Shown here: positions 31,694 through 63,052 of the stretch, in pieces
Numbering within the stretch: the stretch's first letter is position 1
How the letters are laid out: every line of letters begins with the position of its first letter
From: Acidobacteriota bacterium
GTDB taxonomy: Bacteria; Acidobacteriota; Vicinamibacteria; Vicinamibacterales; UBA2999
Assembly: GCA_030697165.1 (NCBI GenBank)
Contig: JAUYQQ010000017.1
Span: 1-64,000, forward strand
Direction: 5' to 3'
DNA: 64,000 bases
Made by a program: the position numbers and the translations under genes
The notes under the pieces: generated by a model
Told to the model about the DNA's origin: nothing
The model's input: the letters and a program-made list of their open reading frames with translations, nothing else
Databases searched by the model: none

Positions 31694-32116
31694 ATGACGA
31701 CGGACGACGATATGCGCGAAGAGATCCAAGGTCTGGGAACAAGGTTCGATGGACTCGAGCAGAAGTTCGGCGGACTGGAGCAGAAGTTCGGCGGACTGGA
31801 GCAGAGGTTCGGCGGGCTGGAGCAAAAGTTCGATGGACTCGAGAAGAAGGTCGATGGACTGCCGACCAGAGCCGACCTGGCTGGATTCAGGGACGAGATC
31901 ATCAACAACTTCCGGATCCTGGCCGAGGAAGCCAAAGCGGGTGCACGGCTTGCTGCGGAGGGTTTTGACGGGACGCTCAAGAGAATCGAGCGCGACCTCG
32001 GCGACCTGAAACAGGAGATGGTCACCAAATTCTCGGACCATGGCCAAGCGTTGGCAAATCACCACCAGCGGCTGCTCACGTTAGAGCGCCGGCGACGCCG
32101 AACCAAGCGTGACTAG
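31694..32116 (+). CDS. Heptad-repeat coiled-coil protein, copy 2
   Basis: A 140-residue protein. Residues about 15-55 are seven-residue units LEQKFGG, LEQRFGG, LEQKFDG, LEKKVDG, each encoded by a 21-base repeat. A helical region follows with RADLAGFRDEIINNFRILAEEAK and a basic tail RRRRRTKRD. It is a paralogue in design and in leader sequence of 24295-24735, but the repeat units differ. A coiled-coil rod is expected. The function is unknown. Its 3' end overlaps by 4 bases the end of the HEPN-gene relic on the other strand. Confidence 0.7.
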   Translation: MTTDDDMREEIQGLGTRFDGLEQKFGGLEQKFGGLEQRFGGLEQKFDGLEKKVDGLPTRADLAGFRDEIINNFRILAEEAKAGARLAAEGFDGTLKRIERDLGDLKQEMVTKFSDHGQALANHHQRLLTLERRRRRTKRD

Positions 32117-32345
32117 TTCTGGGCTGGTTTCACTCGAGAAACCAGCTCCTCCACCGTCCCCAGCCACCCCAATAGTTCCGCCGACGTTGGCGGCAACTCA
32201 TACGGATGCTGATGGCATGCCCGGCTGAGTCCCGCGCACGCGTAGGACGCGCGTTCAGCCAGCTCCTCGTCGCGGAGGTAGTGCGGAAGGCATAGCAGCT
32301 GCGCCTTCATCGAGCACTGCTCCATCCCGGGCGCGGCCCCCTTCG
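32113..32345 (-). pseudogene. HEPN cassette gene, 5' truncated copy
   Basis: The minus strand encodes PGMEQCSMKAQLLCLPHYL... and SYACAGLSRACHQHPYELPP, ending VSRVKPAQN, which matches the C-terminal two thirds of the intact gene at 33911-34309. Upstream of PGMEQ the sequence is replaced by a CCTTCGCCAAGG element. The usual LARQALEGALDDFWKVRA part is absent, so it is a broken copy. The Rx4H motif (RACHQH) is kept. Confidence 0.75.
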
Positions 32346-32362
32346 CCAAGGCTGCGGCGGCC
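32337..32362. mobile_element. CCTTCGCCAAGG short element, copy 2
   Basis: CCCCTTCGCCAAGGCTGCGG lies exactly at the point where the truncated HEPN copy stops matching the intact one. The minus-strand frame reads ALAKGAA through it. This suggests that the element marks the breakpoint. Confidence 0.65.
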
Positions 32363-32481
32363 ACGACGGCGGCATCTCGCCCGGCTGCATGTGGGCGTAG
32401 AATGCCGGTGTGGAGCCGGATCCTGAACTGTTTTTCGAGGTCCTGCCGGCTCTGGGATTCCGGGGTCGCGGGGACGCAGAT

Positions 32482-32694
32482 ATGGCCGAAGTGAAGATGT
32501 TCTACGACCGGGAGGGCCAGACCCTGACCGTTTGGTTTAGTGAAGCAACTCCGGAGTACATCTGTGAAGAGACTGGCGAGGAGGTTGTCCTGATGAAAGA
32601 CGTGGCAGGGCGCGTGATTGGGTTCGAGAAGCTGAACTTCTCGATTCCTCAGTCCGATTCGCTTCACGTGGCCCTCGAAACAGTGCCGGCCTGA
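32482..32694 (+). CDS. DUF2283-family protein
   Basis: A 70-residue protein, MAEVKMFYDREGQTLTVWF..., with VLMKDVAGRVIGFEKLNF further on. This is the DUF2283 pattern (YDxExDxLxI...vxxdxxGxvvGiEil), small proteins common beside DUF4258 or HicA-like toxins. The start at 32482 matches the domain; a longer frame begins at 32410. No partner toxin is adjacent. It is followed by a VapBC45-like pair 58 bases downstream. Confidence 0.8.
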   Translation: MAEVKMFYDREGQTLTVWFSEATPEYICEETGEEVVLMKDVAGRVIGFEKLNFSIPQSDSLHVALETVPA

Positions 32695-32752
32695 CGGGTT
32701 GCCTGAGGGCGTCAGGCTTCTCCGTTCGCCGAGCAAGGGGTAGAATGCAGGA

Positions 32753-33454
32753 ATGTTGGCAAGGAGGCCCGCCGCCAATAAGGATCATCGCAACCAACCC
32801 GCGTATCCCCTGAGTGAAGCTGCCAGGTATCTGAAGCTCCCGGCCGCGACGCTGCGTGCGTGGACGGTTGGGCGGCCGTACCCGACTGCTCATGGCCAGA
32901 GCCACTTCCCGCCGCTGATCAGGCCGGCATCTAAAGAGCCGCCCGTTCTGTCGTTCTGGAATCTCATCGAGGCGCATGTGCTTCGGGCGCTGCGAACCGA
33001 ACACGGGGTTCCCATCAAGGCGCTGCGCCAGGCCGTGGACTACGCCGAGAAGAAACTGAGCATTGAGCGCCTGCTCCTGAGCCCCGAGCTCAGGTCCGAG
33101 GCCGGCCGATTGTTCTTGGACCGCTACGGCGACCTGATTGACCTGCAGGCCTCCGGACAACTCGCCATGAGGCAGGTGTTCGAGGCGCACCTCAAACGCG
33201 TCGAGTGGGATGAATCGCGGTTCCCGGTTCGGCTGCGTCCGTTCGTGATGGCCGAGTCGTCGCTTGATGGGATGCCCATCGCGATTGACGCCAATATTTC
33301 ATTCGGTCGCCCAGTGGTACTTCGCGCCGGCATCTCGACGGCCGCTATCGCTTCGCGCATCGACGCGGGCGAGACAACGGACGACCTCGCAGCCGATTAC
33401 GGGCTTACCGTGGAGGAGATTGAGCACGCCGTTCTCTACGAGCGGGCGGCTTGA
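32753..33454 (+). CDS. VapB45-like antitoxin: HTH plus DUF433
   Basis: A 233-residue protein. The N-terminus has a MerR-like helix-turn-helix (YPLSEAARYLKLPAATLRAW), the middle is helical, and the C-terminus has a DUF433-like HTH (RPVVLRAGISTAAIASRIDAGETTDDLAADYGLTVEEIEHAV). Size and layout match VapB45-type antitoxins, which are longer than plain DUF433 proteins. It overlaps the next gene by 4 bases (TTGA), the pattern of a toxin-antitoxin operon. The start at 33 kb-side Met (32753) is the first Met; RBS AAGGGG lies about 14 bases upstream. Confidence 0.82.
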   Translation: MLARRPAANKDHRNQPAYPLSEAARYLKLPAATLRAWTVGRPYPTAHGQSHFPPLIRPASKEPPVLSFWNLIEAHVLRALRTEHGVPIKALRQAVDYAEKKLSIERLLLSPELRSEAGRLFLDRYGDLIDLQASGQLAMRQVFEAHLKRVEWDESRFPVRLRPFVMAESSLDGMPIAIDANISFGRPVVLRAGISTAAIASRIDAGETTDDLAADYGLTVEEIEHAVLYERAA

Positions 33455-33910: not shown

Positions 33911-34309
33911 CTATGCCCCTGACGTCACGCTGGTAACCAGCTCCTCAACCGTCCCCAGCCACCCCAGCAACTCTGCCGACGTGGGCGGCAGCTCATACGG
34001 ATGCTGATGGCATGCCCGGCTGAGCCCCGCCCACGCGTAGGACACACGCCCCGCCAAGTGCCCATCGCCGAGGTCTTGGGGTCCTAGCGTCTTAGGGTTC
34101 TGAAGATAGTACGGAAGGCATAGCAGCTGCGCCTTCATCGAGCACTGCTCGATCCCGGGAGCGCGGACCTTCCAGAAATCATCCAGGGCACCTTCGAGGG
34201 CCTGCCTTGCCAGCAGGGCCGTGGCCCGCGGCCACAAGCCCGCCGTGGATGGGTCAATCCGCTCCATCAAGTTGCGCGCGGCGGTCACGACTTCGGCGTG
34301 CGCCAGCAT
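33911..34309 (-). CDS. HEPN-like protein, partner of a broken AAA ATPase
   Basis: A 132-residue helical protein starting MLAHAEVVTAARNLMERI. It contains SRACHQHPYELPP, an Rx4H motif (RACHQH) as in HEPN ribonucleases, and ends ELLGWLGTVEELV. It overlaps by one base (TGATG) the C-terminal piece of a RecF/SMC-like ATPase upstream, so the two formed a pair. An extra run of about 12 residues (NPKTLGPQDLG) is absent from the copy at 32113 and is encoded by a 9-base tandem repeat. Two more tail copies lie at 26896 and 32113. A role in abortive infection is plausible but inferred. Confidence 0.7.
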   Translation of the reverse strand: MLAHAEVVTAARNLMERIDPSTAGLWPRATALLARQALEGALDDFWKVRAPGIEQCSMKAQLLCLPYYLQNPKTLGPQDLGDGHLAGRVSYAWAGLSRACHQHPYELPPTSAELLGWLGTVEELVTSVTSGA

Positions 34310-34689
34310 CACAGCCCCTGGACCTTCTCGGCCAGCTTCTCGGTATCGCGGATCAGCAGTTGGATGTCGCCGGCGAACTCCTGGTGCGCGCCCTCCTTGC
34401 AGCCCTTGAACGCATCGCCCGCCCAGCTGCCCATCTTGTTCAGGCGCGCCATCACGTCGCCGCCGCGGTCGCGATCGTCGAAGAGGGCCAGTGCGGCCAG
34501 GGTGGTCCGCATCTCCGATACCAAGTGGGTTCCAGCGCGGCCCCCTTCGCCAAGGCTTCGGCGGGCCAAGCGGGCCAGGCCGTCCACGCGCGAGGGGTCC
34601 ATGGATTGCACCGGGTCGTCGATCACCACGAAGCGGAACGGGCTTTCGGGCAGGGTGGCGCGTGGCAGGAACAGGCTGAGGCCGTGGTC
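34309..34689 (-). pseudogene. AAA ATPase, C-terminal fragment (Walker B part)
   Basis: The frame LSLFLPRATLPESPFRFVVIDDPVQSMDPSRVDGLARL is the Walker B and D-loop region of a RecF/SMC-type ATPase. It then passes into a CCTTCGCCAAGG element (ARRSLGEGG) and the tail DIQLLIRDTEKLAEKVQGL. The Walker A part lies separately at 35672-36058, and about 1 kb of unrelated sequence with a toxin-antitoxin pair lies between. The region after Walker B is also shortened. It ends one base into the HEPN gene start. Confidence 0.75.
34543..34570. mobile_element. CCTTCGCCAAGG short element, copy 3
   Basis: CCCTTCGCCAAGGCTTCGGC followed by GGGCCAAG sits inside the ATPase C-terminal fragment. It reads SLGEGG in the gene frame, and normal ATPase sequence after DGLARL is missing. 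This is the third copy of the element, again within a rearranged gene. Confidence 0.65.
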
Positions 34690-34928
34690 TGAATTCGGAC
34701 TCGCTCGGCATTCGGCTGGCGCTGCATCCCGACTGGCTGCGTTGCTCCTCCCTTACATATGTGCAATATGCTCGGTCGTCGCGCCTTGCCATTCGGGCGC
34801 ATCGCCACCCTCGGTGCTCGAGCGAATCCGAATCCTGACCACCCGGGAGTGCAGTTCGCCGCGGCTCTTCACGCGCAAGGCAGTGCGGCCGAGTCCAAAC
34901 CTGTGGCTTGGCTTCGGCACGCGATGAC
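34690..34928. other. Decayed sequence between ATPase fragment and TA pair
   Basis: No gene was found in these 239 bases. They contain CTGCGTTGCTCCTCCC followed by ACATATGTGCAATATG, which resembles a palindromic intergenic repeat known from several phyla (recalled, not checked). The junction with the ATPase fragment is near 34689. Confidence 0.4.
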
Positions 34929-35324
34929 CTAGCCGCCAATCGGAAGTTGGCGGACTCTAATTCGGAGACCGGACTGCGATTTCTGCTCCACTGTGAGGAG
35001 GAAGGGCGTGGACAGATCTCCCGCAGCCGTGTTGGCAGCTTCGAGGGTAGCCAGCACGACGCCGCTTGAAATGTGCCCGGGGCGCAAGAACACGACGCCT
35101 GTCGAAATCGCCGAGCCTTGCAGAGCCAGCCGGCCAAAGTCTGGGTCGTGAGTGAGGACGACTCGGCCATCGGCGTCCGCCCGCTCGAGGATCAGGCTAT
35201 CGGCGGCTCCTGCCAGACCCAACTCCGAAACGGTTACGATCTGGCAGCCGAGGGCTCTCAGCCCAGAGACGACTTCGGGGTTGATGTTCTCGTCCGCTAG
35301 CAACGCGAACGCGAACAGGTTCAT
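34929..35324 (-). CDS. DUF5615 PIN-like toxin
   Basis: A 131-residue protein with the family start FAFALLADENINPEVVSGLRALG and the core ILERADADGRVVLTHDPDFGRLAL. DEN, E-A and the THDxDF motif form the acidic site of this PIN-like fold, so it may act as an RNase toxin. It overlaps the upstream DUF433 gene by 4 bases (ATGA), the standard order antitoxin-toxin. The pair sits in the middle of a disrupted ATPase gene. The tail after residue 105 is not distinctive. Confidence 0.85.
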   Translation of the reverse strand: MNLFAFALLADENINPEVVSGLRALGCQIVTVSELGLAGAADSLILERADADGRVVLTHDPDFGRLALQGSAISTGVVFLRPGHISSGVVLATLEAANTAAGDLSTPFLLTVEQKSQSGLRIRVRQLPIGG

Positions 35325-35671: not shown

Positions 35672-36058
35672 CTACCCTTCCTTCCAGATCTTCGAGCGAT
35701 CCGACCAGCGCTTGCTGTCGCCGGTGAGCAGCACTTCCAGCGCCTCGGCGAAGCTGGACTTCCCGGAGCCGTTTCGCCCGACGATGATGGTCAGGCCGGG
35801 GCCGGCGGTCAGCGTGAGGGTTTGCCTGGGGCCGATGCCGCGGAAGCCTTCGACGGCGAGGGAGGTGAGGTATGCGCCCGTGCCTTTGGTTGCCGACGGC
35901 TTCTCGTCGGCCTTCGCCGTCGTCTTGGCGTTCTGGAGGACGCTGTCGAGGGCGTCGCGGCCGTCGCAGGCGGCGAGGACGAGGGCGCTCCAGTTCTTGG
36001 TGAGCAGTTCTTCTATCTCCAGGCGGGTCCGAACCAGATCCCGAAGGTCGCTATTCAT
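35672..36058 (-). pseudogene. AAA ATPase, N-terminal fragment (Walker A part)
   Basis: The frame from ATG 36058 begins MNSDLRDLVRTRLEIEELLTK. It has FRGIGPRQTLTLTAGPG and Walker A IIVGRNGSGKSSFAEALEVLL, then ends at KIWKEG and a stop. It is the start of a RecF/SMC-type ATPase whose end is at 34309-34689; the intervening few hundred residues are missing. The broken gene and the HEPN gene together look like a former two-gene defence module. The 5' part could still be translated as a 128-residue stub. Confidence 0.75.
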
Positions 36059-36138: not shown

Positions 36139-38313
36139 CTACGCTGTTTCCTTCATCCACGCCTGGCTTCGCTGGACGGATGCGCGAACCGCAACGCACC
36201 AGTCAGTCCAACGAGCCTCCGCGAAAATGTCGTGATGAAAGAACTTCGGAGTTATAACGTCGCCCATCGGAGTGCGGACACGTATCCGACTCACTCTGCA
36301 GGCTTCGAGTCGACGCCCCAGCCCCATAAAGAGTGTGCACAACCTGACAAACGCCTCAAGATCGGGCTTGATTGCCTCCTGGATAGCCAAGGCACGAAAC
36401 CGCTGCTCAAGTGCGGGCACATACTCTCCGTAGAGTATTTCTGAGAGCTCATGGAAGATGCTCGCGTACTGTCCAAGTCGCTGCCGGTGTTCGTACCAGT
36501 CCTCAGCACTGAGAGGACGATCTGCAGATTCCAGTCCCACCAGCGCTCGTTGCGATTGCGACCATAAGACGTTGCCAATCGCCAGGGCAATGTGCATGAA
36601 GTTTGGCACACCTGCAACGGACGGTGTCGAGCAATGGCGTCGCATCCTTCGGGTGTGACGCTCGCAGAATCCGATTGCTGCCTCGTGTAGGGACGCATAC
36701 GCGCGAAGGTTGCCTTGACCGAGGCCGTTAATCGCGGCGTCCCCGTCGTGCTGGGGTCTGGCTCTTCGATAGTCAAACGGCCGCTCGGCGTTGATTACCG
36801 GGATGTCGCAGTGCGTGAGAAAGTTCTGCAGCGTGTCGGTTTCATTCAATTGAAGGAGCTCGTCGAGCATTGCCGCGAACAGGGTAGCGCTACGCTGGGC
36901 CTCTCGAACTCGTCGCTCACGGCCTTTGCTTCGCCCGGTCTCGACATCCTGCAGGTTGAGGAGGAATAGACGGTTGCTGGCGAGCACGGTTGAGCGACCG
37001 GCTGCCGCTTCGAGGTGAACAACCGTGGCACCGGCGGCACACCTCTCCGCGGTAGGGCTATCAACCGTTGCGACCAACAGTGCTGGAGTCGACAAGGATA
37101 GGGGGACGCGGAGCTGGCCTCCATCCCCGGTAGACAGGATAACGAACCACTCGCTCAGGCCGCTGGGCGGTTCTCCGACCCGGCATGCAAGAACTTGATC
37201 GGTGAGGGTTGCTTCCAATAACTCGATTGGGGGCGATGGCACACGCGGATGACGTTCTTTCGGCGCTGTTCGCACCTTCAGTGGATCAGTTAGGACCGCC
37301 GCGGAGCCGCAAGGGTCGAACAGACGTTCAGGCTTGCAGACCTTGGTCGACAAACCGTCAATGACAATCATCAACTCGCAATTGCCGGTCTGGCTCGTCG
37401 AGAAGAGGCCCGAGTGCGTAAAGTTGGCGCTACCGAATGCGAGTCGAACCTCATCTCCAGCGATCACCGCTAAGGCCTTAGCATGGAGGGGTTGAGGGTG
37501 ACTGTCATCGTCGACCGCAATGTCTTTCACGGTCGCTGCGCCATTTCGAACGGCAGGATGTCGCACCCAATCAGGTGTTAGCGTGGTCAACCCGTTCTGG
37601 GTCCAAAGCGTGTACTTTTCGGCATTGAGGTCCCGGATCACGCGCGTGAGCGCTGCCGGGGTAGCATCGAAATATCGCGACACCGCGTGGAACGCAGTTG
37701 GACGCTTCTGGACGCCGTCGCACACTTGCTCCCAGATCGAGCGGTCTAGATTGTGAATCAAGCGCGCTGACGGACCAGGCGTAGCAGGAACCGAAGGTCT
37801 GCTCAGCCAAGGTGCGCCAACCAGGAGTTCCCGTAGATTGCCTTGTAGGTCGTCGCCCGGCGAGCTGTCGGCCAATCTCAGCAGGAACTGCACAGCCTGC
37901 TGGAACAATGCGAGGTGTTGTTCATCCTTCGCCGATTCGTAGCGATACACCCCGACAAGTTCGGCGTTTGTAGTTAGTCCCGCCTTACTAAAATTCGCGC
38001 TCCCAACGATCAGAAGCCCTTTCTCCTTGCTTGCGAACAGGAATAGCTTGGGGTGGAAAATGCCGGGCACCGAGATGGGGTGCAATAGATAACGGAGATT
38101 CGCAAGACGAGGCCATTCCGACGGCGGCGCGGCGAGAATCTCGTCGTAGATTCGACGGTCGAGAATGACCGACACGTTTCCGTTCTCCGATAGGGACTTC
38201 AGCCGGTCCAGGCAATAGTTCTCGAAGAAGTTCGGGTCGAACGTGAAGGTGCAGATTACAGCGTGATCGAATGTGTTCCGACCTAACGCCTCGTGAATGT
38301 CTGACCTCACCAT
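36139..38313 (-). CDS. Double-HKD phospholipase-D superfamily protein
   Basis: A 724-residue protein. Two PLD-type motifs lie in the first half: IFHPKLFLFASKEKGLLIVGSANFSKAGL (about 90-118) and LHAKALAVIAGDEVRLAFGSANFTHSGL (about 270-300). Each has HxK and GSANFxxxGL, so the protein resembles the nuclease/helicase-associated PLD group of defence loci. The second half (about 400-724) is helical and unknown. Its start overlaps the stop of the upstream gene by one base (TGATG), so the two are coupled. It is the last gene of the minus-strand run. Nucleic-acid cleavage is the likely activity. Confidence 0.8.
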   Translation of the reverse strand: MVRSDIHEALGRNTFDHAVICTFTFDPNFFENYCLDRLKSLSENGNVSVILDRRIYDEILAAPPSEWPRLANLRYLLHPISVPGIFHPKLFLFASKEKGLLIVGSANFSKAGLTTNAELVGVYRYESAKDEQHLALFQQAVQFLLRLADSSPGDDLQGNLRELLVGAPWLSRPSVPATPGPSARLIHNLDRSIWEQVCDGVQKRPTAFHAVSRYFDATPAALTRVIRDLNAEKYTLWTQNGLTTLTPDWVRHPAVRNGAATVKDIAVDDDSHPQPLHAKALAVIAGDEVRLAFGSANFTHSGLFSTSQTGNCELMIVIDGLSTKVCKPERLFDPCGSAAVLTDPLKVRTAPKERHPRVPSPPIELLEATLTDQVLACRVGEPPSGLSEWFVILSTGDGGQLRVPLSLSTPALLVATVDSPTAERCAAGATVVHLEAAAGRSTVLASNRLFLLNLQDVETGRSKGRERRVREAQRSATLFAAMLDELLQLNETDTLQNFLTHCDIPVINAERPFDYRRARPQHDGDAAINGLGQGNLRAYASLHEAAIGFCERHTRRMRRHCSTPSVAGVPNFMHIALAIGNVLWSQSQRALVGLESADRPLSAEDWYEHRQRLGQYASIFHELSEILYGEYVPALEQRFRALAIQEAIKPDLEAFVRLCTLFMGLGRRLEACRVSRIRVRTPMGDVITPKFFHHDIFAEARWTDWCVAVRASVQRSQAWMKETA

Positions 38314-39932
38314 CACACGCCTTCCGAGAGGGACCGCCTGAGGACGTCTCTTCCTTCTGCAGATACAACGAGGCTGGGCTTGCCCTTGGTGCCGACCCAA
38401 CGGAGCAGCCCAAGGTCGGCGAGAATGCTGACGGCCTGTTTGTGCCTAGACTCGCGAAAGTAAGGTGTGCAGTCCTGCTCTCGGTAGTACCGGCCCTCCT
38501 CGTGACGCAGCCAACAACTTTCGAGTCGGCCCTTGCCGTACATGACTTGGTCGTGCTGCTTAATGACCAACACACAAGCGATTCTCAGGGCCGTGCGCCA
38601 GTCCATCGCTCCATCGAACCAACTATCCAACAGTGGTAACACGTTAGGACTCGACAGCTCGTTGCCTGATTCCTGGGCAACCGCCAAGTAGCTGACGTCA
38701 GTCTGAATGCCTCGCCATTTGCCATACAGAATGGCGAGAACGACGCAAGAACGGGCCACTAGTTCCGGTGGTGACCCTGCATCTTCGTGGCAGAACCATT
38801 CGCTGAGTACGTTGTTGTAGGGGTAAGCAGAGCGAAGTTTGACGCACGCGGCTTCGTCCGGTTGGCGGCCGATCTGAAGGGCAGCCATGAGAGCCTTGGG
38901 AGTGGCACACCGGCGTCCAACGGCGCTATGCAAGTATTGGGCAAATCTCGAATCGGTCAGTTCGTCTAACACCTCGTCCAGGGTTGCTCCGCCAGGATGG
39001 CCAGCAATAGCATCGATCACTGCCTGAAGCACCCCTTCAAGTGCCTGCGTCAGGAACTGCTGCAGGCAGAACTGCCGCCAGAAATGCGTTGGCCTCTGCA
39101 ATTTAGCTTGGCTCACGAAATTCTTGGGACGATCTCTTGAATCGACAAGCACCCCAAAATAGGACGGGCCGAAGAGAAGCTGATCGGAGAGAGTGGCCTC
39201 CAACACCGGAATGTCTGCCTGCATGTAATCGGAAACAGTCTGGAGCACTCTCGCCAGGGAACCGCGCCGTCGGATAGTCGATTCGCTTGGGGTGGGGACG
39301 TTCAAACCGAAGAAGAGGTTGATCAGGAGCCGACGTTCCTGTGAGGCAAAGGGTCGACTGAGGCCATCCAGACCCAATCGCTCACTGGAGCGCTTTAGCA
39401 TGTTCAAGGGAACCGTCGCTTCTTCGAATCCCTTTTGGCGCAAGTACGGGGCCTCAGAGACGGCGTCCTGGAATACCCGAGCCAGGTCCTCGGCCATGCC
39501 GGGTGTAAGTCTGTCAAGCCCATCTTCGAGTCGCTGCGTCAGCCCAAGTTCGTACAGGCAACCAGAGTAGTACTGACCAAAAGCACCCAGCCGATTCGAA
39601 GGCAGGACCGCGAAGTCGGTTGAGATCTGACCGCTTGCCTTCGCTCGCGCGACCCGCACTTCGACAGCTCGAACGCCGACAGGATGGGTGCCATCGGCTC
39701 CAAGTAGTGTTGCGATTGCCACGGCTGCGTCACGGCGCTGAAAAGCCTTCACAAACGCGTCACCGCTACGTGGCTGATCCTGTTCGTGGATATGGCGAAG
39801 GATCCAACAATAGAGAGAGTAGTAGCGCGCGCGGTCTGTCTGGGTGGTAATTGCCGGCAGCATGCGGCCAGACAGCATGTGGGCAACACGCGATAGGCCG
39901 AGAGGGTCTCGACCGCCTGCATCCGTGACCAC
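38313..39932 (-). CDS. Unknown protein coupled to the PLD nuclease
   Basis: A protein of at least 539 residues that I do not recognise. The annotated start is a GTG at 39932, but the frame stays open upstream with sensible sequence (KIRPGSAGATALLPQWTKRVV), so the true start may lie at a rare codon near 39990. The visible motif DPLGLSRVAHML...DRARYYSLYCWILRHI suggests an alpha-helical fold. The C-terminus looks winged-helix-like (KQAVSILADLGLLRWVGTKGKP). It overlaps the PLD gene by one base. It is probably a partner or sensor for the nuclease. Confidence 0.65.
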   Translation of the reverse strand: MVTDAGGRDPLGLSRVAHMLSGRMLPAITTQTDRARYYSLYCWILRHIHEQDQPRSGDAFVKAFQRRDAAVAIATLLGADGTHPVGVRAVEVRVARAKASGQISTDFAVLPSNRLGAFGQYYSGCLYELGLTQRLEDGLDRLTPGMAEDLARVFQDAVSEAPYLRQKGFEEATVPLNMLKRSSERLGLDGLSRPFASQERRLLINLFFGLNVPTPSESTIRRRGSLARVLQTVSDYMQADIPVLEATLSDQLLFGPSYFGVLVDSRDRPKNFVSQAKLQRPTHFWRQFCLQQFLTQALEGVLQAVIDAIAGHPGGATLDEVLDELTDSRFAQYLHSAVGRRCATPKALMAALQIGRQPDEAACVKLRSAYPYNNVLSEWFCHEDAGSPPELVARSCVVLAILYGKWRGIQTDVSYLAVAQESGNELSSPNVLPLLDSWFDGAMDWRTALRIACVLVIKQHDQVMYGKGRLESCWLRHEEGRYYREQDCTPYFRESRHKQAVSILADLGLLRWVGTKGKPSLVVSAEGRDVLRRSLSEGV

Positions 39933-40000
39933 ACGTTTGGTCCACTGAGGAAGGAGGGCGGTTGCACCTGCGGAACCAGGTCGAATCTTCGTCTGGGTAC

Positions 40001-40933
40001 TCAGCCGCCCACCTCTTCGTAGGCCTTCCTGATCAACGGCTTTGCCAACTCGACTTCAGCCGAATCGGATACGGTGATCTCCAAGTCGCCGGTTCCAAAG
40101 TGCCCGATCGATGAGACGTCTCGACTGATTCCCTTTGGGCCTGGGAACTTCTTCGGGTCGAGCTTCAGATACAAGAGGAGTTTCTTGTGCTTCACTTCCA
40201 TACACAGGATGTTCTGTGATGTCTTGTAGCTGACGTAGAGCTTCTTCGGAGCGACGTCGATCGACGAGTCGAGGCCGGTCGTGAACTCGTTGACGGCGAG
40301 CGCCAGTTCGCGAATTGCCTCGGGCTTACCTTCAAGGTGTTCGTCAAACGTGTAGACACCAATCGCACGGGCTGCAGCCGACTTCCTGCCCGCCTCCACC
40401 ATAACTGGGTTCTTCCCGGCCAATGGCGCACCGATTCCGGCGTCTGACTTGCGGAAGACTTCTTCCAGATAGACAACATCGTTAGCGAAGGCGCGGTAGG
40501 TCCACAGTTCGAGGCCCGCGCCCATCATCCGAACCGCGTGCAGGTCGTACTTCCGGAAGTTCGGCGCTATACAAATGACTCTAACTGTTGACCAATCGAC
40601 CTTGATCTTGTCGCCCAATGCCTTTTGGGCGGCAACCTGGAAGTCGCCTCTGTGATCGTGAATCCAGGCGAGATAGAAGAGGCTTTGGTTGACCAGGTCA
40701 GAAGCCTCCGTGACCTTGTATTCGATGATGACGGGGTTATCGTCCTCCGACAGGGCGAGGGTATCGATGCGACCCGCGTGCTGTGAGCCAGTCGAAAACT
40801 CGGTCGCGACTAGCCGACACTTGAATACGGCGTCTAAGTTCGATTCAATCAGCCGCTGCAGCACCTTCTCGGACGTAAAGGGACGCTGCGGAACCGCCTG
40901 GAGAGTCGTCTTCGCAATCGAGAACAGTGGCAT
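40001..40933 (-). CDS. PD-(D/E)XK nuclease with DUF5655 domain
   Basis: A 310-residue protein. Residues about 40-100 carry RIDTLALSEDDNPVIIEYKV, the D...ExK site of a NucS/DUF91-like endonuclease. Residues about 200-310 match DUF5655 (DEHLEGKPEAIRELALAVNEF, then KLYVSYKTSQN and SRDVSSIGHFGTGDLEITV). Such proteins occur as single-gene nucleases, often in defence islands. The start ATG is at 40933. It is 67 bases upstream of the unknown gene and follows the small gene at 41053 on the same strand. Confidence 0.83.
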   Translation of the reverse strand: MPLFSIAKTTLQAVPQRPFTSEKVLQRLIESNLDAVFKCRLVATEFSTGSQHAGRIDTLALSEDDNPVIIEYKVTEASDLVNQSLFYLAWIHDHRGDFQVAAQKALGDKIKVDWSTVRVICIAPNFRKYDLHAVRMMGAGLELWTYRAFANDVVYLEEVFRKSDAGIGAPLAGKNPVMVEAGRKSAAARAIGVYTFDEHLEGKPEAIRELALAVNEFTTGLDSSIDVAPKKLYVSYKTSQNILCMEVKHKKLLLYLKLDPKKFPGPKGISRDVSSIGHFGTGDLEITVSDSAEVELAKPLIRKAYEEVGG

Positions 40934-41052
40934 TCGCGCTAGGCTCCGTCCATGAGGCTGAGTCCAGGGCAGTTCGCTCTGGCATTCTCGGACAACAGCA
41001 TTGTCGAAGAACACTTGAGTTACCAGTCCGAATTTGTCCAAGGCTGGGCGCG

Positions 41053-41283
41053 TCAGACCTCTCTGAAGGCCGGCCGTTGGGCGGCGTTGAACGCTCGGAT
41101 CGCGATTGTGTGCGCCAAACCGTGGCGGCCTTCCGGCGTACCGGCGGTCGTTACCCCGGCAAGCCAACATGCGACGTCCACCAGGGCGTCGGTTGCTTCT
41201 GCCTGCGAGGCCCCCGATTCACGTAGGGCACCCGCCACCGCGTCAAACAACGCAACATGTACTGGAGTGAGTGGCGCGTTCAT
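41053..41283 (-). CDS. Small hypothetical protein
   Basis: A 76-residue Ala-rich helical protein, MNAPLTPVHVALFDAVAGALRESG..., with no recognised family. It lies between the HEPN-like gene and the nuclease on the same strand, with gaps of 56 and 119 bases. Little Shine-Dalgarno signal is visible before the ATG at 41283. It could be a small partner (antitoxin-like) of a neighbour, but this is only its position speaking. Confidence 0.5.
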   Translation of the reverse strand: MNAPLTPVHVALFDAVAGALRESGASQAEATDALVDVACWLAGVTTAGTPEGRHGLAHTIAIRAFNAAQRPAFREV

Positions 41284-41339
41284 AAGGTAAAGACGCTCGT
41301 CAGGCAGTTTCCTGACACCAGTGCCAAGAGCGAACGGAC

Positions 41340-42632
41340 CTAGGCTCGCAGCGCCGCCGCGAGTTTGGCGAGATACACGAGCGACCCTGATTCAAGCACG
41401 AGAGCACGAAGGGTCACAAAGGCGTCTGCCGGCATGGCCGCCACATGTGCGCCAAAATGGTTTCGGATCGCGCCCACTTGACGGGTTGTCGCCCTCAAGT
41501 CGGCGACCAGCTCAGGATCGAGGCCGGCCCCCAGGTCACAGTCGAGCCCCATTACGCGCAATAGGTGCTGTGACTGGCCAAGCGTGAGGAACTGGTGGGC
41601 CGCCATGGGGCTCCGGGAATCAAGCTCGTTGATATTGACGTGCTGTGGTTGTCCGAGTGCACGCGAGGTGTCCACCACGCCGCTGCCGGCCATCAGGTCT
41701 GGGTCGAACAGGCCGTACCTGGCGGGCAGCGGCACTCCGCGGTTCCGCCTGGCTACTTGCACCGGTGCCAGGTTCAGTTGCCGCTCAAAGAGTTTGCACA
41801 GCGGCAGACCGGCCGCTGCGTAGTCAACCTCGAGGTTCGCCGACGCGAGAGCGTCGGTGACGACGATGACGGTCGACAGGAAGGCGCGGCTCTCGTTGTC
41901 CAGTTCCGGCCAGATCGCTGTGACTGGCTCGGGTAGTTCGGGTGGATCGGCCAGCGCATGAACGGCGGCCCTTGCGCTTTGAAGCCGGCGCTCGTCCTGA
42001 ATCTGCACCACGTCCAGTTTCGATGCGGCAAATGCACGACTCTCGAATTGGGTTTCCTCCCCATACGAAACCACTCCGAGGAGTGAGGCAAGTAACTCGT
42101 CAAGCACCTCAGGCGAGTTCTTTGACCTGACGGGCCGCGGCGTGAACCGTTGGTCCGGGGACACCTCTCTAAGTGCGAGACTGAACGGTCGAAGCCCCGC
42201 TCCCTCACCGAACTTCATCGCAACGTTAGCAGCGACCTCCAACTGGGCGACTACCGTCGTCGGAGATGTCGGCACGACCAAGCGAGGGCCGGTGAATGCC
42301 GAACGTCCCACGACCACCACCGGAAGCTCGTCCCATCGAGCGCCGCCAATCCCCACGAACTGCTCGAGCAAGGCCCACGAACCGACTGAAAGCGGTTCGT
42401 GCCTCTTCTGCTTCGTCCCCTGGGCGTCCGCCCATGCCGCAGCCATGTCCAGAGGCACAAACACCACCACGCTCTCGCTTGTGACGGCCTGGATTCGGTC
42501 GGCGTCGTTCCGAATGGCCGCCATCATCGACTCGTCGGTTGGAGAGAACAGAACAAGTGCCTGAAGGGGGATCTGATCGAGCCGGGACCGAAACGCTGCG
42601 AAATATTCCGGCCCGTAGAGTTGGGAGGACAT
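41340..42632 (-). CDS. HEPN-like domain protein of unknown function
   Basis: A 430-residue protein. The N-terminal half (about 1-190) is alpha/beta and unrecognised. The C-terminal half is helical and shows two features of HEPN domains: LCKLFERQLN (about 277-286) and GAIRNHFGAH (about 398-407, an R-N-x4-H motif as in HEPN RNases). It is 33 bases downstream of the macro-HEPN gene on the same strand and is probably co-expressed. A ribonuclease or nucleotidyl-transfer-related role is possible. Confidence 0.6.
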   Translation of the reverse strand: MSSQLYGPEYFAAFRSRLDQIPLQALVLFSPTDESMMAAIRNDADRIQAVTSESVVVFVPLDMAAAWADAQGTKQKRHEPLSVGSWALLEQFVGIGGARWDELPVVVVGRSAFTGPRLVVPTSPTTVVAQLEVAANVAMKFGEGAGLRPFSLALREVSPDQRFTPRPVRSKNSPEVLDELLASLLGVVSYGEETQFESRAFAASKLDVVQIQDERRLQSARAAVHALADPPELPEPVTAIWPELDNESRAFLSTVIVVTDALASANLEVDYAAAGLPLCKLFERQLNLAPVQVARRNRGVPLPARYGLFDPDLMAGSGVVDTSRALGQPQHVNINELDSRSPMAAHQFLTLGQSQHLLRVMGLDCDLGAGLDPELVADLRATTRQVGAIRNHFGAHVAAMPADAFVTLRALVLESGSLVYLAKLAAALRA

Positions 42633-42665
42633 TGTACGGCTCAGTCCAGTTCGCGCGCCATCTCG

Positions 42666-44762
42666 CTAGTCTTTCCAGATCACATCGCCGGCAGGAACCA
42701 GAATGGGATCGACTCGCAAGGGGTTCGAGAGCGGATACATGAGGTAGGTTTCACCGGGGCGAACGGGCTCGTCAGTGAACAGCGTTTCGTCCATGCCTTC
42801 GTCGTTCAACGCGCGCACGGTGCGGCGGCCCCAGCGGTCGATCTCAAGGGACTGGATCGTCACGACAAATGGGAGCAGGCGACCTTCCGGCCTGGCCAAG
42901 GCGACCAGGAGTTGCCGCGCGTGGTGCAGGAACCCCAAGGCATCGGCCTCTGACGCAACCGGGGCCCCAGGTTTGAAGTGCGAGAACGAGTTGCGAACGC
43001 CGGTGAGCGCGTCTTTCCCCTTAGGAAGGGATGTCTCGCCCAGGTCGCGCTGCAGCACGAGAGCTTGGGGCGCCTCCGTCGTTCTGAGGTCATCGATGAC
43101 CTGCTCGCAGTAGATCAACAAAGGACCGAGACCAGACTTCACAAGATCGCCTGGTTTCGAGATGCTGCCGCGACTCCTTAGGTAGATCTCAGGTGCTTCG
43201 GAAAACGCCGCTCGGCAAATGAATCTAAGTAGTACATGGCAAAGGTACTCCAGCTGTCTCGCCACATCGTGAACCACGCTCGACGCTGCCGACAGGCCCT
43301 TGACGCGCACAAGCTGTTCGGAGCGGTCGATAATCTCACGCACCTGCTTCGGGCCATGGCACGCGGTGGCCGAAGGGAAGCCGACAGCTGAAAGGATCTC
43401 ACGGACAAGTTCGGCGGAGTCAGCCGCGTCATCGGAGGACTGGCCGACAACCTGTTCATAGATAACGTGCAGCGTCGGAAGGTCGAACGTTCCACTCAGA
43501 AGGTCGGCCGGTTCGTCAATCCGAATGCAATGCTCGAGGAGCCGGAGCTCGAACTCGCCCTGGTAGCCCCTTTTTAGCAGGAGTCGGTCGATCCTCGACT
43601 TCAGTTCGTCGTGCTTGGCCAGCTGATCGAGTAGCAGTCGATGCAGCCTTCGGACATGCGATCCTTCCGGCACGGCAACGACTTCCTCAGCAGGTCGAGC
43701 CGCGACCACGGGCTCGGGCGGACGTTTGACGCTGGCGCCATCGCTAGGGCCTTGCAGGTCGAACAGCGGGCCGCGTGCGGGATGGATGAACTTCTTGTGC
43801 AGGCCTCCCATCTCGACTGCGAGCCGCGCGAGGCTGCTGGCCGTTGGCACGTCGTCGTCTGCCCTTCCTTGATCTGGCGGTAATGACCGCTCAAGGCACT
43901 GAAGGACGGAGAGAAGGGCTCCTGTCACTTCGGCGGTCCATCTGGGCTGGCGGCTGCCATGTGCGAGTCGGTTCCGGACCATACTCGCCCGCGACCAAAG
44001 CTCAGGTGGAAGATCGCCAGGATTCATCGTGACGTGCGCTTGGTCCAGCAGATGGGCAACCACCGATGGCCAATGGGAGGCGGTCCCGATCTCCAGCAGT
44101 GACTGCAGCGAGGTGACCAGCCAGGCCGGCAGACTCATGCCGCTTGTCAGCATCCGGTTGGCGGAGGAGCGAATCTGCGCAAACGAAGTGTCCAGGCTGA
44201 CCAAGGGCCCGATGGCGTCGCACGCGATCGAGAAATTTGGAGCAGGAGCCGAGACGATGATCCGAGACAAGGCTGAAGGACCAGCAATTGAGTCCTGGAT
44301 CGCGCGAGCCAGAAGTGAGGCAGAAACCTGCGGCGTAATTCGACCGGCACCAGACGCGACCAAGGGGAGACCTACTGCAGTGTGCCCATGCTGCTCCGAT
44401 AGCTCGAACACTCGCGTGTAGAGCTCGCTCAGCTGGGGTTGCGTCAAACGACGGTTGCTATCAAAGTCGACGGTTACGGCGTGGAAGATCGCTTTGGCCT
44501 GTAGGCGACCAGCCACCGTGACCACCACATCGCCTAGCGCCCATTTGTCGCTTTGCGCCGCCACACTGGCGGCAATCTCGGACTCACCGGCGCCTTGCCA
44601 GAGAGCCAGCGAGACGCCGCCGCCATGACTGAGGTAATTGTCGTCAGAACTGACCAGAACATCGACAGGGATGCCGAGTTCCGACAAGGACCGGTTGGTG
44701 ATCAGAATCTCGCTGTCGCCGACCTGAATTGAGTGCTCGGCGAGCTGGAGGCCTTCGCTCAT
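42666..44762 (-). CDS. Macro domain fused to two HEPN-like domains
   Basis: A 698-residue protein. Residues about 1-175 match a macro domain, which binds or removes ADP-ribose: DVLVSSDDNYLSHGGGVSLAL is the ligand loop and GLPLVASGAGRITPQ the second loop. Two helical modules follow, each with an HEPN-like motif: VRNRLAHG (about 263, Rx4H) and VRNSFSHF (about 597, Rx4H). A linker rich in Pro/Ala lies between (about 310-370). The combination suggests a conflict protein that senses or edits ADP-ribosylation and cuts or binds RNA. It is the first gene of the lower cluster. Confidence 0.72.
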   Translation of the reverse strand: MSEGLQLAEHSIQVGDSEILITNRSLSELGIPVDVLVSSDDNYLSHGGGVSLALWQGAGESEIAASVAAQSDKWALGDVVVTVAGRLQAKAIFHAVTVDFDSNRRLTQPQLSELYTRVFELSEQHGHTAVGLPLVASGAGRITPQVSASLLARAIQDSIAGPSALSRIIVSAPAPNFSIACDAIGPLVSLDTSFAQIRSSANRMLTSGMSLPAWLVTSLQSLLEIGTASHWPSVVAHLLDQAHVTMNPGDLPPELWSRASMVRNRLAHGSRQPRWTAEVTGALLSVLQCLERSLPPDQGRADDDVPTASSLARLAVEMGGLHKKFIHPARGPLFDLQGPSDGASVKRPPEPVVAARPAEEVVAVPEGSHVRRLHRLLLDQLAKHDELKSRIDRLLLKRGYQGEFELRLLEHCIRIDEPADLLSGTFDLPTLHVIYEQVVGQSSDDAADSAELVREILSAVGFPSATACHGPKQVREIIDRSEQLVRVKGLSAASSVVHDVARQLEYLCHVLLRFICRAAFSEAPEIYLRSRGSISKPGDLVKSGLGPLLIYCEQVIDDLRTTEAPQALVLQRDLGETSLPKGKDALTGVRNSFSHFKPGAPVASEADALGFLHHARQLLVALARPEGRLLPFVVTIQSLEIDRWGRRTVRALNDEGMDETLFTDEPVRPGETYLMYPLSNPLRVDPILVPAGDVIWKD

Positions 44763-44867: not shown

Positions 44868-45530
44868 CTACAGCCGTCCGGCTTCAAGGAAACTGTAGTA
44901 ACCAGTCTTGTCGAAAACAATGTGGTCGAGCAGCTCAATCCCGATGATGCCACCCGCTGCCTTGAGTTGAACCGTAATGGCTACATCGTTCGGCGATGGT
45001 TCAACGCCGCCGCTGGGATGATTGTGGGCAACGATCACGGCCGACGCCCGATCGGCTAGTGCATCTGCGAAGACCTCTCGAGGATGGACCGGGGTTCGGT
45101 CAATCAGGCCTATCGAGATGACTCGGATATTCAGAACCTCGTTTGCGCCGTTGAGGCTGGCGCACAGAAAGTGCTCCTGCTTCCGATCGGCGTAGTGTCG
45201 AATGTGGGGGAGAAGGTCAGCCGGGGCCACGATCTTGGCGCCCTCGGGCTTGATCCGGCGACGGGCGAACTCGATGGCCGCGAGAATGAGGGCGGCCTTC
45301 GCATCGCCAACTCCCTCGAACGACACCAGGTCGGTGGCCACTACCTGCAGACCCTTCTCGTCCATGAGCCGGGCCAGCTTCCCTGCAAGGGTCATGACGT
45401 CCATTCGGGCTGTGCCCTTTCCGAGCAGGACCGCCAGCAACTCCCTATCGCTCAAGGCCGCCGCGCCCTTCGCGAGCAGCTTCTCTCGCGGCCGGTCAGC
45501 CTCCGGAGTCTGCTGGATCGTCTTGCTCAT
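44868..45530 (-). CDS. radC: RadC-family JAB/MPN protein in the hsd operon
   Basis: A 220-residue protein. An HhH-like N-terminal part (VSFEGVGDAKAALILAAIEFA) is followed by the RadC JAMM domain with HNHPSGGVEPSPND (about 170-183), the complete metal site. The start ATG at 45530 lies 4 bases after the hsdR stop, so it is translated with the restriction genes. RadC proteins are named for an old DNA-repair claim; their true role is unknown, but they are very common in mobile and defence islands. Confidence 0.9.
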   Translation of the reverse strand: MSKTIQQTPEADRPREKLLAKGAAALSDRELLAVLLGKGTARMDVMTLAGKLARLMDEKGLQVVATDLVSFEGVGDAKAALILAAIEFARRRIKPEGAKIVAPADLLPHIRHYADRKQEHFLCASLNGANEVLNIRVISIGLIDRTPVHPREVFADALADRASAVIVAHNHPSGGVEPSPNDVAITVQLKAAGGIIGIELLDHIVFDKTGYYSFLEAGRL

Positions 45531-45534: not shown

Positions 45535-48456
45535 TCACGCCGGTGAGGATAGATGGGTTTGGATAACAGTGACGGCCATGATGTCGAAGATGCCGCCTGT
45601 GTCTGTGTATTTCGGATCGGCGAGCTCATCGTAGCGACCTCGTGCGTCGTAGGTCGTCTGGATGTCCCCGTTCACCTGGCCGCGATACGGCCCATCAAGA
45701 TAGATGCGGTCGTCACGATGGGCCCGGACTGTCGTACGGATAGCTGGATCGGCGATCTTCTCCTCGGTTACTTGCTTAATATAGAGCGCCTCCTCGTCTG
45801 TGATGTCGTATTTGGCCCGGATTTGCGCGATCACGTCCTGAACGGACACTTTCGCTGGCACCGGGCCTGCGCCTCCTCTGCCCTTGCCTGGCTGGAGCTT
45901 CACCGGGCCGCCGCTGGTCATCACCCCCGCATACTGAACCGCGGCCTTGGTGACCACGGTTGCCCGAATCTGCTTCATCAGCTCGGACACGGTCCCAGCC
46001 TTGATCAGCTGCGGGCCGACCCATTCAGCGAAAGTGGCGAATTCGCGAATGTCCGCAGAGTAAGTGAAGAAGCACGTCAGGAAATGGTAGCTCTTCACGA
46101 AGCGGGCCAGCAGATACGCGAACGCCTTGCGGTGCTCCCAAGCGGTGAGCTTGGACTGAAACCTCGCCCGCAGGGCATTCACCTGAAACTGCACCTGCGC
46201 ATCCGTCCCTGTCTTGAGCAGTGCCACCACATCAGCGGCGTCTTTCTGGGTGAAGAGGCCGACGGCGAGAATCTCCGCGAGGAGCTTTGAACAGGTCTCT
46301 TGATCCGGCTCATCTGGCTTGAACGGCGTGCCTTTCCGATACTTCGAGAAGGCCTTGAGGATTTGCTTGGCGTTGTTGGTGAAGTCCACGACCACGACAT
46401 CTTTCTTGCCGTGGTGACAGCGATTCAACCGTGACACCGTCTGCACCGCGTTGCGGTCGAGCACCGGCTTGTCGAGAAACATGCCGGCAAGTAGAGGCTG
46501 GTCGAATCCTGTCTGAAACTTGTTCGCGACCACGATCAATCGGTAGTCGTCACCCTCGAAGCGATCTTCAATCAACTCCCCCGCCTGCAGCTCATTCACG
46601 GAGTATTCGCTGATGGCGGCGTTCGTCTCGGGATGGACGAAATCCGAAAAGGCATAGAGCACCTTGTAGTCGGCCCCGCGCTCTTTGAGCTTTTCTCTGA
46701 TGATATTGAAGTATCGCAGCCCGGCTACGCGCGAAGAGGTGACGATCATCGCCTTGGCGCGTCCGCCGATGAGGGGCTTAACATCCTTCTCAAAGATGCG
46801 CAGCATGACCTCGGCCTTGTATTGGATCAGCCCGTCATCCTGAAACGCCACGTTCTGTAGCGCTTTTGAGACGACCCCCTTGGGGTAGAGCTTTTCCTCA
46901 TCCGGCTTCGGAACGACCGAGCAATGCAGGTTGTAGAGCGTCTTGTAGGAGATGATGCTCGCCGCCACGTCCACGATGTAGCCCTCTTCGATCGCTTCCG
47001 CTTCGGTGTAGCTGTCGAAGGGCGTACCGAACATCGACACAGTGGCCGGTGCTGGTGTAGCGGTAAAGGCGACGAACAGCTGATTCAGATCATGCTCGCG
47101 AATGACCTTGGCGATCTGCTCTTCGAGATCCTCCTCGGGTGCCTCATTGTCCGGCTCGCCCTCTTTGCGGAACGGCAGGCGGATGGCAGCACCCATCTGG
47201 CCCTCCTGCGAGCGGTGGGCTTCATCAATCAGAAACGCCACCCGCAGTTTCTTCAACTCTGGGTTCTGTTGCAATGTCTCAAGGACGTAGGCGAGCTTCT
47301 GCTGCGTCGTAACGATGATAGATTTCCGCTCCTTAAGAAACCGCGGCAGGTCGTCGGCCTTTTTCGCAATTCCGACCACATCCTTGAGGTGGGTGAACTT
47401 GTCGATGTCCTCACGGATGTTTGTGTCGAGCGACTTACGGTCAGTGAGAATGAAAGTGATGTCCACCAGCTTCTCGTTAGTGCCGGGCTTGTAGAGACTG
47501 TGGAGCCGATCGGCCAGCCAGCAGATGGACAACGTCTTGCCGCTGCCGGCCGAATGGTCGGCCAGATACTTCTTCCCGATGTTTCCGGTGGTTACGAAGT
47601 GGGCTGTAATGTCTTCCGCCACGTGCCGCACCAGGCGGCTTTGGTGGTACCTGGGGAAGATTGTGGAAGCTGGACGCTCCGGCTTGTCACCTTCTGCCGC
47701 CCGCTCAGGAACGCGAACTAGAAAGAACGACAGCGCCTCCAGCAATTGATCCTGCGACAGCACCTCCCGATAGAGAAACTCCACGGGATACTCGTCGGCA
47801 TTTGTCGGGGTGTTGGTGAGACCCATGTTGTGCCAACGGAAATTCTCTTCCCTGCGTGGGTCGGTCGCGGCCTTCGCGTCACTGGTGTCGGCGGCGAGGT
47901 AGAGGAAGGGGTGCTGGAAGATCTTGCGCGTATGATCGCGGGCTACGAATTGCGCTACGGCGTGCTCGACATTCTGATTGGCCTCGTGCTTCAATTCCAA
48001 CACGACGATGGGCAGACCGTTGAGGTAGAGGACAAAATCAATCTCGTGATTCACGTCGCCGAAGTAGAAGTGCGGGCGGAAGGTGATGCGGTTCTCGGCA
48101 TATTTGGCGACGGCAGCGCTCGCGGCGGACCGTGGCTTCGGATAGAAGAGGCGGAACTCCAGCCCGCGCACCTTGAGCCCCTGCCGGAACAGCATCCAGA
48201 GCGGCGTGTGCTCCAGTTCCTTGCGCAGCGACTTGAAGACTTCCTCCCGCGCATCCGTGCCGTAATCGTCCATCAGCTTTTTGAGCGTGTCGGCCTGGCT
48301 GGCCTTAAGGAAAGCCCAGAGCTGGTCCTCGGCAATGCAGTGGTCGGTGTCGGTGATGTCGGACTGCTCAAGCACTGCATACTTGTGCTCGCGGACAAGG
48401 TAACCAGCGATGTGCTTCTGAAAGGTCAGCTCCGGCGGTTCAATCATCTTAACCAT
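45535..48456 (-). CDS. hsdR: Type I restriction enzyme, R subunit
   Basis: A 973-residue motor-nuclease subunit. The N-terminal PD-(D/E)XK endonuclease shows EIDFVLYLNGLPIVVLELK (about 138-156). The SF2 helicase follows: Walker A HSAGSGKTLSICWLA (about 305), DEAHRSQEG, SAT-like FTATPAP, and VSRLNRCHHGKKDVVVVDF. A helical HsdR C-terminus ends the protein. It cuts foreign DNA after translocation, guided by HsdS. ATG 48456 overlaps the hsdS end by 8 bases; MIEPPEL (48447) is an alternative start. All motifs look intact. Confidence 0.94.
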   Translation of the reverse strand: MVKMIEPPELTFQKHIAGYLVREHKYAVLEQSDITDTDHCIAEDQLWAFLKASQADTLKKLMDDYGTDAREEVFKSLRKELEHTPLWMLFRQGLKVRGLEFRLFYPKPRSAASAAVAKYAENRITFRPHFYFGDVNHEIDFVLYLNGLPIVVLELKHEANQNVEHAVAQFVARDHTRKIFQHPFLYLAADTSDAKAATDPRREENFRWHNMGLTNTPTNADEYPVEFLYREVLSQDQLLEALSFFLVRVPERAAEGDKPERPASTIFPRYHQSRLVRHVAEDITAHFVTTGNIGKKYLADHSAGSGKTLSICWLADRLHSLYKPGTNEKLVDITFILTDRKSLDTNIREDIDKFTHLKDVVGIAKKADDLPRFLKERKSIIVTTQQKLAYVLETLQQNPELKKLRVAFLIDEAHRSQEGQMGAAIRLPFRKEGEPDNEAPEEDLEEQIAKVIREHDLNQLFVAFTATPAPATVSMFGTPFDSYTEAEAIEEGYIVDVAASIISYKTLYNLHCSVVPKPDEEKLYPKGVVSKALQNVAFQDDGLIQYKAEVMLRIFEKDVKPLIGGRAKAMIVTSSRVAGLRYFNIIREKLKERGADYKVLYAFSDFVHPETNAAISEYSVNELQAGELIEDRFEGDDYRLIVVANKFQTGFDQPLLAGMFLDKPVLDRNAVQTVSRLNRCHHGKKDVVVVDFTNNAKQILKAFSKYRKGTPFKPDEPDQETCSKLLAEILAVGLFTQKDAADVVALLKTGTDAQVQFQVNALRARFQSKLTAWEHRKAFAYLLARFVKSYHFLTCFFTYSADIREFATFAEWVGPQLIKAGTVSELMKQIRATVVTKAAVQYAGVMTSGGPVKLQPGKGRGGAGPVPAKVSVQDVIAQIRAKYDITDEEALYIKQVTEEKIADPAIRTTVRAHRDDRIYLDGPYRGQVNGDIQTTYDARGRYDELADPKYTDTGGIFDIMAVTVIQTHLSSPA

Positions 48457-49783: not shown

Positions 49784-49785
49784 GG

Positions 49786-54405: not shown

Positions 54406-54600
54406 ATGGTCTCCTGGCAAATCTTGAACCCAGGGTATGGACGCACGCCGCCGCCTCTCCTGACACTTCGGGCGCCGCCTGGCGACGGCTAAGCTCTCGG
54501 CCGGGGACTTCAGAACTTGCAGTCCTGCCAGGGATTGGTCCTTCGTCGCGACCGTTAAGTCACCGCTTCGTGAGTTCCTGATTAGCAGGCAGCATTCTTT

Positions 54601-59403: not shown

Positions 59404-59420
59404 GGGAAGGGTGCGTTTCC

Positions 59421-61214: not shown

Positions 61215-61216
61215 GC

Positions 61217-62287: not shown

Positions 62288-62327
62288 AACCACCTACGTT
62301 CCTCAGAGCTTCTTCCGGCGTCCACTA

Positions 62328-63047: not shown

Positions 63048-63052
63048 CGTCA

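Follow-up and report, generated by a model that had tools for sequence, protein, structure and literature searches.

A macro domain fused to a putative HEPN-like domain in a row of adjoining candidate defence modules behind a type I restriction operon of an Acidobacteriota bacterium

The window analyzed here, 64,000 nucleotides of contig JAUYQQ010000017.1 (assembly GCA_030697165.1) from an Acidobacteriota bacterium, carries six consecutive open reading frames (ORFs) between positions 36139 and 44762, all on the minus strand, with order and strand checked from the sequence. Read along that strand, they encode a macro-HEPN fusion protein, a 430-residue orphan, a 76-residue ORF, a DUF5655 nuclease, a ZacA-like protein and a double-PLD protein. 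Immediately upstream, on the same strand, lie hsdM, hsdS, hsdR and a radC-family gene. The G+C content of the region (36-46 kb) is 58-61% per 2-kb step, versus 62-72% across 1-32 kb. An initial annotation had listed the same six genes in this order and described their domains as typical of conflict systems. Both descriptions hold, as do the macro domain, the DUF5655 nuclease, the double PLD and the overlap of the last two genes; the HEPN parts are weaker than had been claimed. The row of anti-virus-type genes is real, and it looks like about three separate defence modules lying next to each other.

The macro-HEPN fusion (42666-44762, 698 residues) was dissected with Pfam, a three-way alignment with its two full-length relatives, AlphaFold2 and Foldseek. 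A macro domain occupies residues ~9-171 (Pfam Macro, 4.8e-12, 46.3 bits against a cut-off of 22); matches to PDB profiles agree, and the top rows of a Foldseek search with the predicted model are macro domains. Helices follow at ~186-292 (with RNRLAH at 263), ~369-459 and ~494-623 (with RNSFSH at 590-595), then strands at ~632-675 with a conserved DRWGRR and, further on, a conserved DPIL..AGD. In the AlphaFold2 model, built from four alignment rows, residues 11-180, taken ten at a time, have pLDDT values of 68-91; beyond them the model is mostly helical with strands close to the C-terminus, at low confidence.

The view that this macro domain is fused to HEPN-like modules survives for one of the two motifs on which it rested. 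RNSFSH at 590 is kept as RNxFxH in all three macro-HEPN proteins (the relatives read RNEFVH and RNAFAH), and in this form all three carry the Rx4-6H motif of HEPN RNases. The histidine of RNRLAH at 263, by contrast, is absent from both relatives; in one of them, L041, the aligner had drawn this stretch apart, and it was read by eye. Since R[N/D]x3-5H motifs are common by chance, with at least one in 29% of shuffled versions of the sequence, the weight of RNxFxH rests on its conservation. Three findings weigh against an RNase at this position: Macro is the sole Pfam domain in the window protein and no HEPN family is matched by any of the three; the Ex3[KR] element of HEPN proteins is only partly present, with E505 in 3/3 and a K or R four residues on in 1/3; and beyond the macro domain pLDDT is mostly below 65, with an overall mean of 55.5. 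The missing Pfam match, the frequency of comparable motifs in shuffles and the low model confidence outside the macro domain would all suit a C-terminal part that adopts some other helical fold with a chance RNxFxH, making the protein a macro sensor with a different effector. We regard this as the less probable case, since R, N, F and H do not vary among the three proteins, at 34-35% identity between either relative and the window protein, and the region is predicted to be helical. It concerns one part of one protein and is compatible with the row being a set of modules. We read the HEPN-like part as a likely RNase domain.

Most sequences related to this protein share the macro domain only. 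Among 192 other genomes of the class, 18 match it, and in a further scan so do 16 of 40 genomes besides G367, in every case confined to the query's macro domain or reaching at most slightly beyond it. With the C-terminal 504 residues as query, a phylum sample of 395 other genomes yielded a single full-length relative, in G367 (L025/L033); the second match, L026 (2.7e-4), reads as an unrelated protein kinase and was rejected. When 84,980 species genomes were scanned via two peptide patterns, four loci emerged, three matching the macro part only and one full-length, the L041 protein from a 'delta proteobacterium' metagenome-assembled genome. From the macro-only matches we opened 3 of the 18 and 4 of the 16: L038, L039, L052 and L062 contain plain macro ORFs, L049 a related macro domain fused to a protein kinase, and in L037 and L050 the gene caller picked no macro ORF. 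Related macro genes also lie beside a TIR gene (L042) and a trypsin-like gene (L043). In plasmids, eight records align over 18-22% of the query apiece and were all set aside as ordinary macro proteins. Of the IMG/VR scans, the one with this protein gave nothing useful, and another recovered only the L065 contig.

The macro pocket argues for binding rather than catalysis. PDB titles list N30A and D40A mutants of an Oceanobacillus macrodomain, from which its residue numbering was inferred; HMMER aligns the D40A chain without gaps here and pairs N30 with D41 and D40 with S51 of the window protein, so that both MacroD-type residues are absent from its pocket. The equivalents of N30 and D40 in MacroD enzymes are presumably tied to their type of hydrolysis. 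Because both mutated positions are changed, sensing is likelier than hydrolysis, and we infer that the domain has lost MacroD-type hydrolysis and serves a sensing role. The stretches SSDDNY and GGGVS are identical in five proteins (the three macro-HEPN proteins and those of L042 and L043) and partly different in L049. In L033 (positions 3372-8247) a gap of 72 bases separates the macro-HEPN gene from an ARPP-1 gene (2.8e-92) behind it, and a gene for a WYL protein comes next, all in one direction. These neighbours make ADP-ribosylation, proposed in the initial annotation as the signal, plausible. The window's genome contains no match to DarT, the one ADP-ribosyltransferase family searched for, and DarTG was rejected as an identification on this ground.

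Macro domains frequently hydrolyze ADP-ribose links, and this one might accordingly be an ADP-ribose-removing enzyme, either a built-in antidote restraining the HEPN domain or a means of reversing phage ADP-ribosylation. The ARPP-1 and WYL neighbours in L033 would fit such a role; with both positions of the Oceanobacillus mutant series altered to D41 and S51 and DarT absent from the genome, however, we consider it unlikely. The fusion, which is rare and the novel part of the row, is probably an RNase under the control of an ADP-ribose-type ligand.

The remaining genes of the row are of unequal standing. The orphan gene (41340-42632) encodes 430 residues with one HEPN-type motif, RNHFGAH at 390. 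It matches nothing in Pfam, PADLOC, NCBIfam, PHROGs or the PDB, in 296 other genomes of the phylum or in plasmids, nor in IMG/VR by six peptide patterns; its AlphaFold2 model (pLDDT 34.8) has no usable fold, and a profile comparison with the macro-HEPN protein gave nothing useful (Probab 0.10). An R[N/D]x3-5H motif appears at least once in 11% of its shuffles, and here the motif is seen in a single sequence. The second HEPN-like protein of the initial annotation thus exists as an ORF with such a motif, but with no relative to show the motif conserved, its HEPN label is a guess from that one motif. Likewise, the small protein reported next to it corresponds to a 76-residue ORF at 41053-41283 whose status as a gene is uncertain and which has no match in the libraries (including Pfam, PADLOC, NCBIfam and PHROGs) or in plasmids.

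The assignment of the next gene (40001-40933, 310 residues) as a DUF5655 PD-(D/E)XK nuclease is confirmed by Pfam (8.1e-14) and by catalytic residues (E30, D57, E71-x-K73 and Q83) that are invariant in five aligned proteins. It also matches PADLOC PDC-S18 at near full length (residues 2-308 of 310, 1.1e-102). The frame is open up to 41170, and ATG 40933 is the likely start because alignments with the PDC-S18 model and with four relatives begin at that point, the ATG 40933 version alone having been supplied to the profile and the alignment. Plasmid records matching the protein number 39; of five that we opened, four adjoin type I restriction-modification (R-M) genes and the fifth lies close to restriction endonuclease and DNA methyltransferase genes. 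Two of these loci (L069 and L071) are ordered M-S-DUF5655-R, and in one of them the R gene is annotated as a DEAD/DEAH helicase yet matches the window HsdR. The window gene thus resembles PDC-S18 in its near full-length match and in the type I R-M genes nearby, but lies several genes behind hsdR, whereas the L069 and L071 copies lie between hsdS and hsdR. Our literature search on DUF5655 found nothing useful.

The last two genes form a pair. The PLD protein (36139-38313, 724 residues) matches PLDc_2 (5.2e-14) and PADLOC ZacB (7.6e-17) and has two HxK..GSxN..E sites, H87/K89/N107/E118 and H277/K279/N297/E313, invariant in nine aligned proteins (an alignment that omits the contig-cut copy in L034), as expected of the double-HKD PLD nuclease first described. 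Its neighbour (38313-39932), previously listed as a protein of unknown kind, is present as a gene but does have relatives: it is ZacA-like by PADLOC (1.1e-8 over 87-88 residues) and by family alignment. Its TGA shares a base with the ATG of the PLD gene (TGATG), confirming the one-base overlap. The profile match spans 38325-39956, and because similarity runs upstream to ~39956, the GTG start at 39932 probably makes the protein too short; the frame upstream of it (39932-40003) contains no ATG, GTG or TTG, and translation may begin at a CTG that overlaps the stop codon of the DUF5655 gene.

We collected 21 other loci of this pair: 16 picked by the ZacA-like protein (six of eight plasmid records, the other two being further Myroides, three loci in two genomes, one more, and six genomes) and 5 picked by the PLD protein from nine plasmid records not viewed before. 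By tblastn, the PLD partner is found in 16/16 of the former and the ZacA-like partner in 4/5 of the latter, which makes 20 of 21 loci with the two genes detected together; in the exception, L073 from Halorussus, a 629-residue gene that is not detectably similar to ZacA-like proteins overlaps the PLD gene. Some single matches are weak (among them L097 and L099 near 1e-3, found by the profile at 3.4e-84 and 3.1e-9), and the copy in L096, with one internal stop, looks damaged. An HsdR match occurs in one of the 21 loci, the Myroides plasmid locus L032 (5050-15278), where the pair is inserted in a type I R-M operon, with hsdS on one side and hsdR on the other. Neither phage records searched with the ZacA-like protein nor an IMG/VR scan with one ZacA-like protein gave a match or anything useful.

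At a threshold of 1e-3 PADLOC finds ZacA in 7/10 members of the family and ZacB in 9/9; for the window protein the ZacA match is N-terminal and limited to 86-87 of 396 positions of the model. The system to which these profiles belong, Azaca (ZacABC, PDLC03828-03830), reportedly consists of three genes, a make-up with which the profile names agree. The adjacent ZacA-like and ZacB-like genes with their one-base overlap resemble it; the short ZacA match, window proteins longer than the models and the lack of ZacC on the contig (C17) set the pair apart, and with no ZacC at this locus a full Azaca system was rejected. Elsewhere in the genome are two short ZacC matches (contigs C9 and C21), and the same profile also matches in 6/14 control genomes. 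A PLD-like domain has been reported for Azaca (PMC10952713); a literature search for ZacABC gave nothing useful, and the papers listed for ZacA/ZacB were unrelated.

Outside the row, the type I restriction operon occupies 45535-51777 on the minus strand (hsdR 45535-48456, hsdS 48449-49783 and hsdM 49786-51777; PADLOC REase_I, Specificity_I and MTase_I), and the radC-family gene lies at 44868-45530 (Pfam RadC, 1.9e-37). Of the 192 other genomes searched in the class, one, G090, has a close relative of HsdR (80%), and five more have strong matches at 32-34% identity; HsdR has no match in plasmids at 1e-100, nor the R-M region in E. coli genomes. In G090 (L084) hsdM and hsdS (both identified by eye) and hsdR are directly followed by a radC gene 84% identical to that of the window. 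Because radC directly follows hsdR there too, it belongs with the restriction operon and was excluded from the row. The gene directly after radC in G090 we take to be thiI, and none of the six row proteins matches in the 7.4 kb following that R-M operon. The best reading of this one comparison is that the six genes are an addition in the window genome.

Links between HEPN proteins and R-M systems are an established theme, as PMC3710099 sets out with PrrC and PrrI as the model. The window protein shares with PrrC, which goes with a type Ic R-M system, a HEPN-type motif and a position next to hsdMSR genes, but has a macro domain where PrrC has an ABC ATPase; it is missing behind the G090 operon, and its two relatives are not beside R-M genes. 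PrrC proper was rejected for want of an ABC ATPase (only Macro being found) and, in this small sample, of stable hsdMSR linkage. In the same source, some members of the pEK499_p136-like (B) HEPN family are listed in operons with R-M, ART and Macro genes. R-M, macro and HEPN again occur in one place, but to judge by that table row they involve distinct macro and HEPN genes; in the window the two share a single polypeptide, and near it no ADP-ribosyltransferase is known, DarT alone having been searched. The ARPP family, according to PMC9503650, occurs in ADP-ribose systems centred on ARG and also, away from these, beside a WYL factor in a neighbourhood of two genes; L033 resembles these neighbourhoods, while the window gene is flanked by radC and the 41340 gene, with no ARPP or WYL gene found there. 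Animal proteins combining macro and HEPN are mentioned in PMC8195603. Literature searches that reached few subscription papers, together with passages of PMC9503650, PMC8195603 and PMC7159879, brought up no single bacterial protein with both, and a search on ARPP-1 with a macro domain gave nothing useful.

Whether the row is one system was judged by a test set in advance, the co-occurrence of the macro-HEPN gene and the PLD pair elsewhere (tblastn, E <= 1e-3, in small databases of 5-18 kb stretches, some contig-cut). None of the 21 pair loci matches the macro-HEPN protein, the 41340 protein, the 76-residue ORF or DUF5655, and neither of the two full-length macro-HEPN loci shows any other row gene, the pair included, nor, in this small sample, an R-M gene by eye or an HsdR match. 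Eight other genomes of the phylum have a ZacA-like gene; seven lack a macro-HEPN alignment match at E <= 1e-10, and the eighth has a macro stretch with six stops. As the pair and the macro-HEPN gene were never found together (0/21 and 0/2), the test speaks against one unit, and the initial caution that it might be two or three adjacent systems is borne out, although few macro-HEPN loci were available. In that interpretation the conflict-type domains and this caution stand, and the ADP-ribose signal is plausible only. Some observations pull the other way: with only two full-length macro-HEPN relatives the neighbourhood test is thin, the G367 contig extends over only 12.9 kb, and the gaps within the row, 33-119 bases or an overlap, make co-transcription here possible. 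That one layered system spans the R-M operon, the macro-HEPN, 41340 and DUF5655 genes and the pair, cutting DNA first with RNA cutting as back-up, would account for the single strand and short gaps from hsdM through PLD, the Myroides pair between hsdS and hsdR, DUF5655 genes inside type I operons and the frequent linkage of HEPN and R-M genes noted in PMC3710099, yet we think it improbable, as the parts are separate in 21 pair, 2 macro-HEPN and 5 DUF5655 loci, where R-M genes apart no other gene of the row was detected, and none of the six follows the G090 operon.

We favor, by a modest balance of probability, a model in which the stretch consists of adjoining, separately inherited defence modules behind a type I R-M operon. 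From the genes, domains, conserved residues and separate neighbourhoods observed, we infer activities, ligand and direction of control as follows. The macro-HEPN protein, perhaps together with the 41340 protein, would form a module in which the macro domain binds an ADP-ribose-type ligand appearing during infection and, once bound, switches the HEPN-like domain to cut RNA and arrest growth. DUF5655 would be an accessory nuclease, a usual companion of type I R-M systems. The ZacA-like and double-PLD genes would make an Azaca-like two-gene unit, whose PLD protein probably cuts DNA under the guidance or restraint of its partner. More speculatively, and with little expectation that it holds, the macro-HEPN and 41340 proteins could be the two subunits of an RNase with a composite HEPN site. 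This site would stay inactive unless an NAD-derived nucleotide, produced in infection by host NADases or phage ADP-ribosyltransferases, occupied the altered macro pocket, which would give the R-M operon a ligand-gated back-up that is PrrC-like with a macro sensor.

Several neighbouring features were seen in passing. Directly ahead of hsdM, 51859-54420 encodes a DEAD helicase closest to TIGR03817 (below cut-off) and BrxHI-type models. A further apparent conflict cluster occupies 54601-63092: a 1600-residue protein combines Sel1 repeats with a NACHT/AAA-like part (NACHT slightly below cut-off), and upstream of it lie two matchless proteins and one with a weak match to sigma-70 region 2. Past the window end, the same contig carries an RmuC gene and one for a PLD-helicase-DUF3427 protein (64294-70076, L040), and by these genes the defence island seems to continue. 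On the other side, past the PLD gene, a short ORF at 35672-36058 with the beginning of an AAA/SMC-type ATPase is probably a remnant, and ORFs 32113-32778 and 33911-35170 have alike C-terminal stretches, perhaps from a small duplication.

The value of the pair and of the DUF5655 gene lies mainly in better-defined neighbourhoods for known candidates. If the two-subunit reading of the macro-HEPN and 41340 proteins were true, the macro domain with SSDDNY and GGGVS would be a general plug-in sensor that works with HEPN-like, kinase, TIR and trypsin-like partners. The macro-HEPN protein makes testable the idea of an NAD-derived ligand gating a HEPN RNase, and a macro domain and a likely RNase in one protein would couple ADP-ribose-type signals directly to RNA cutting.

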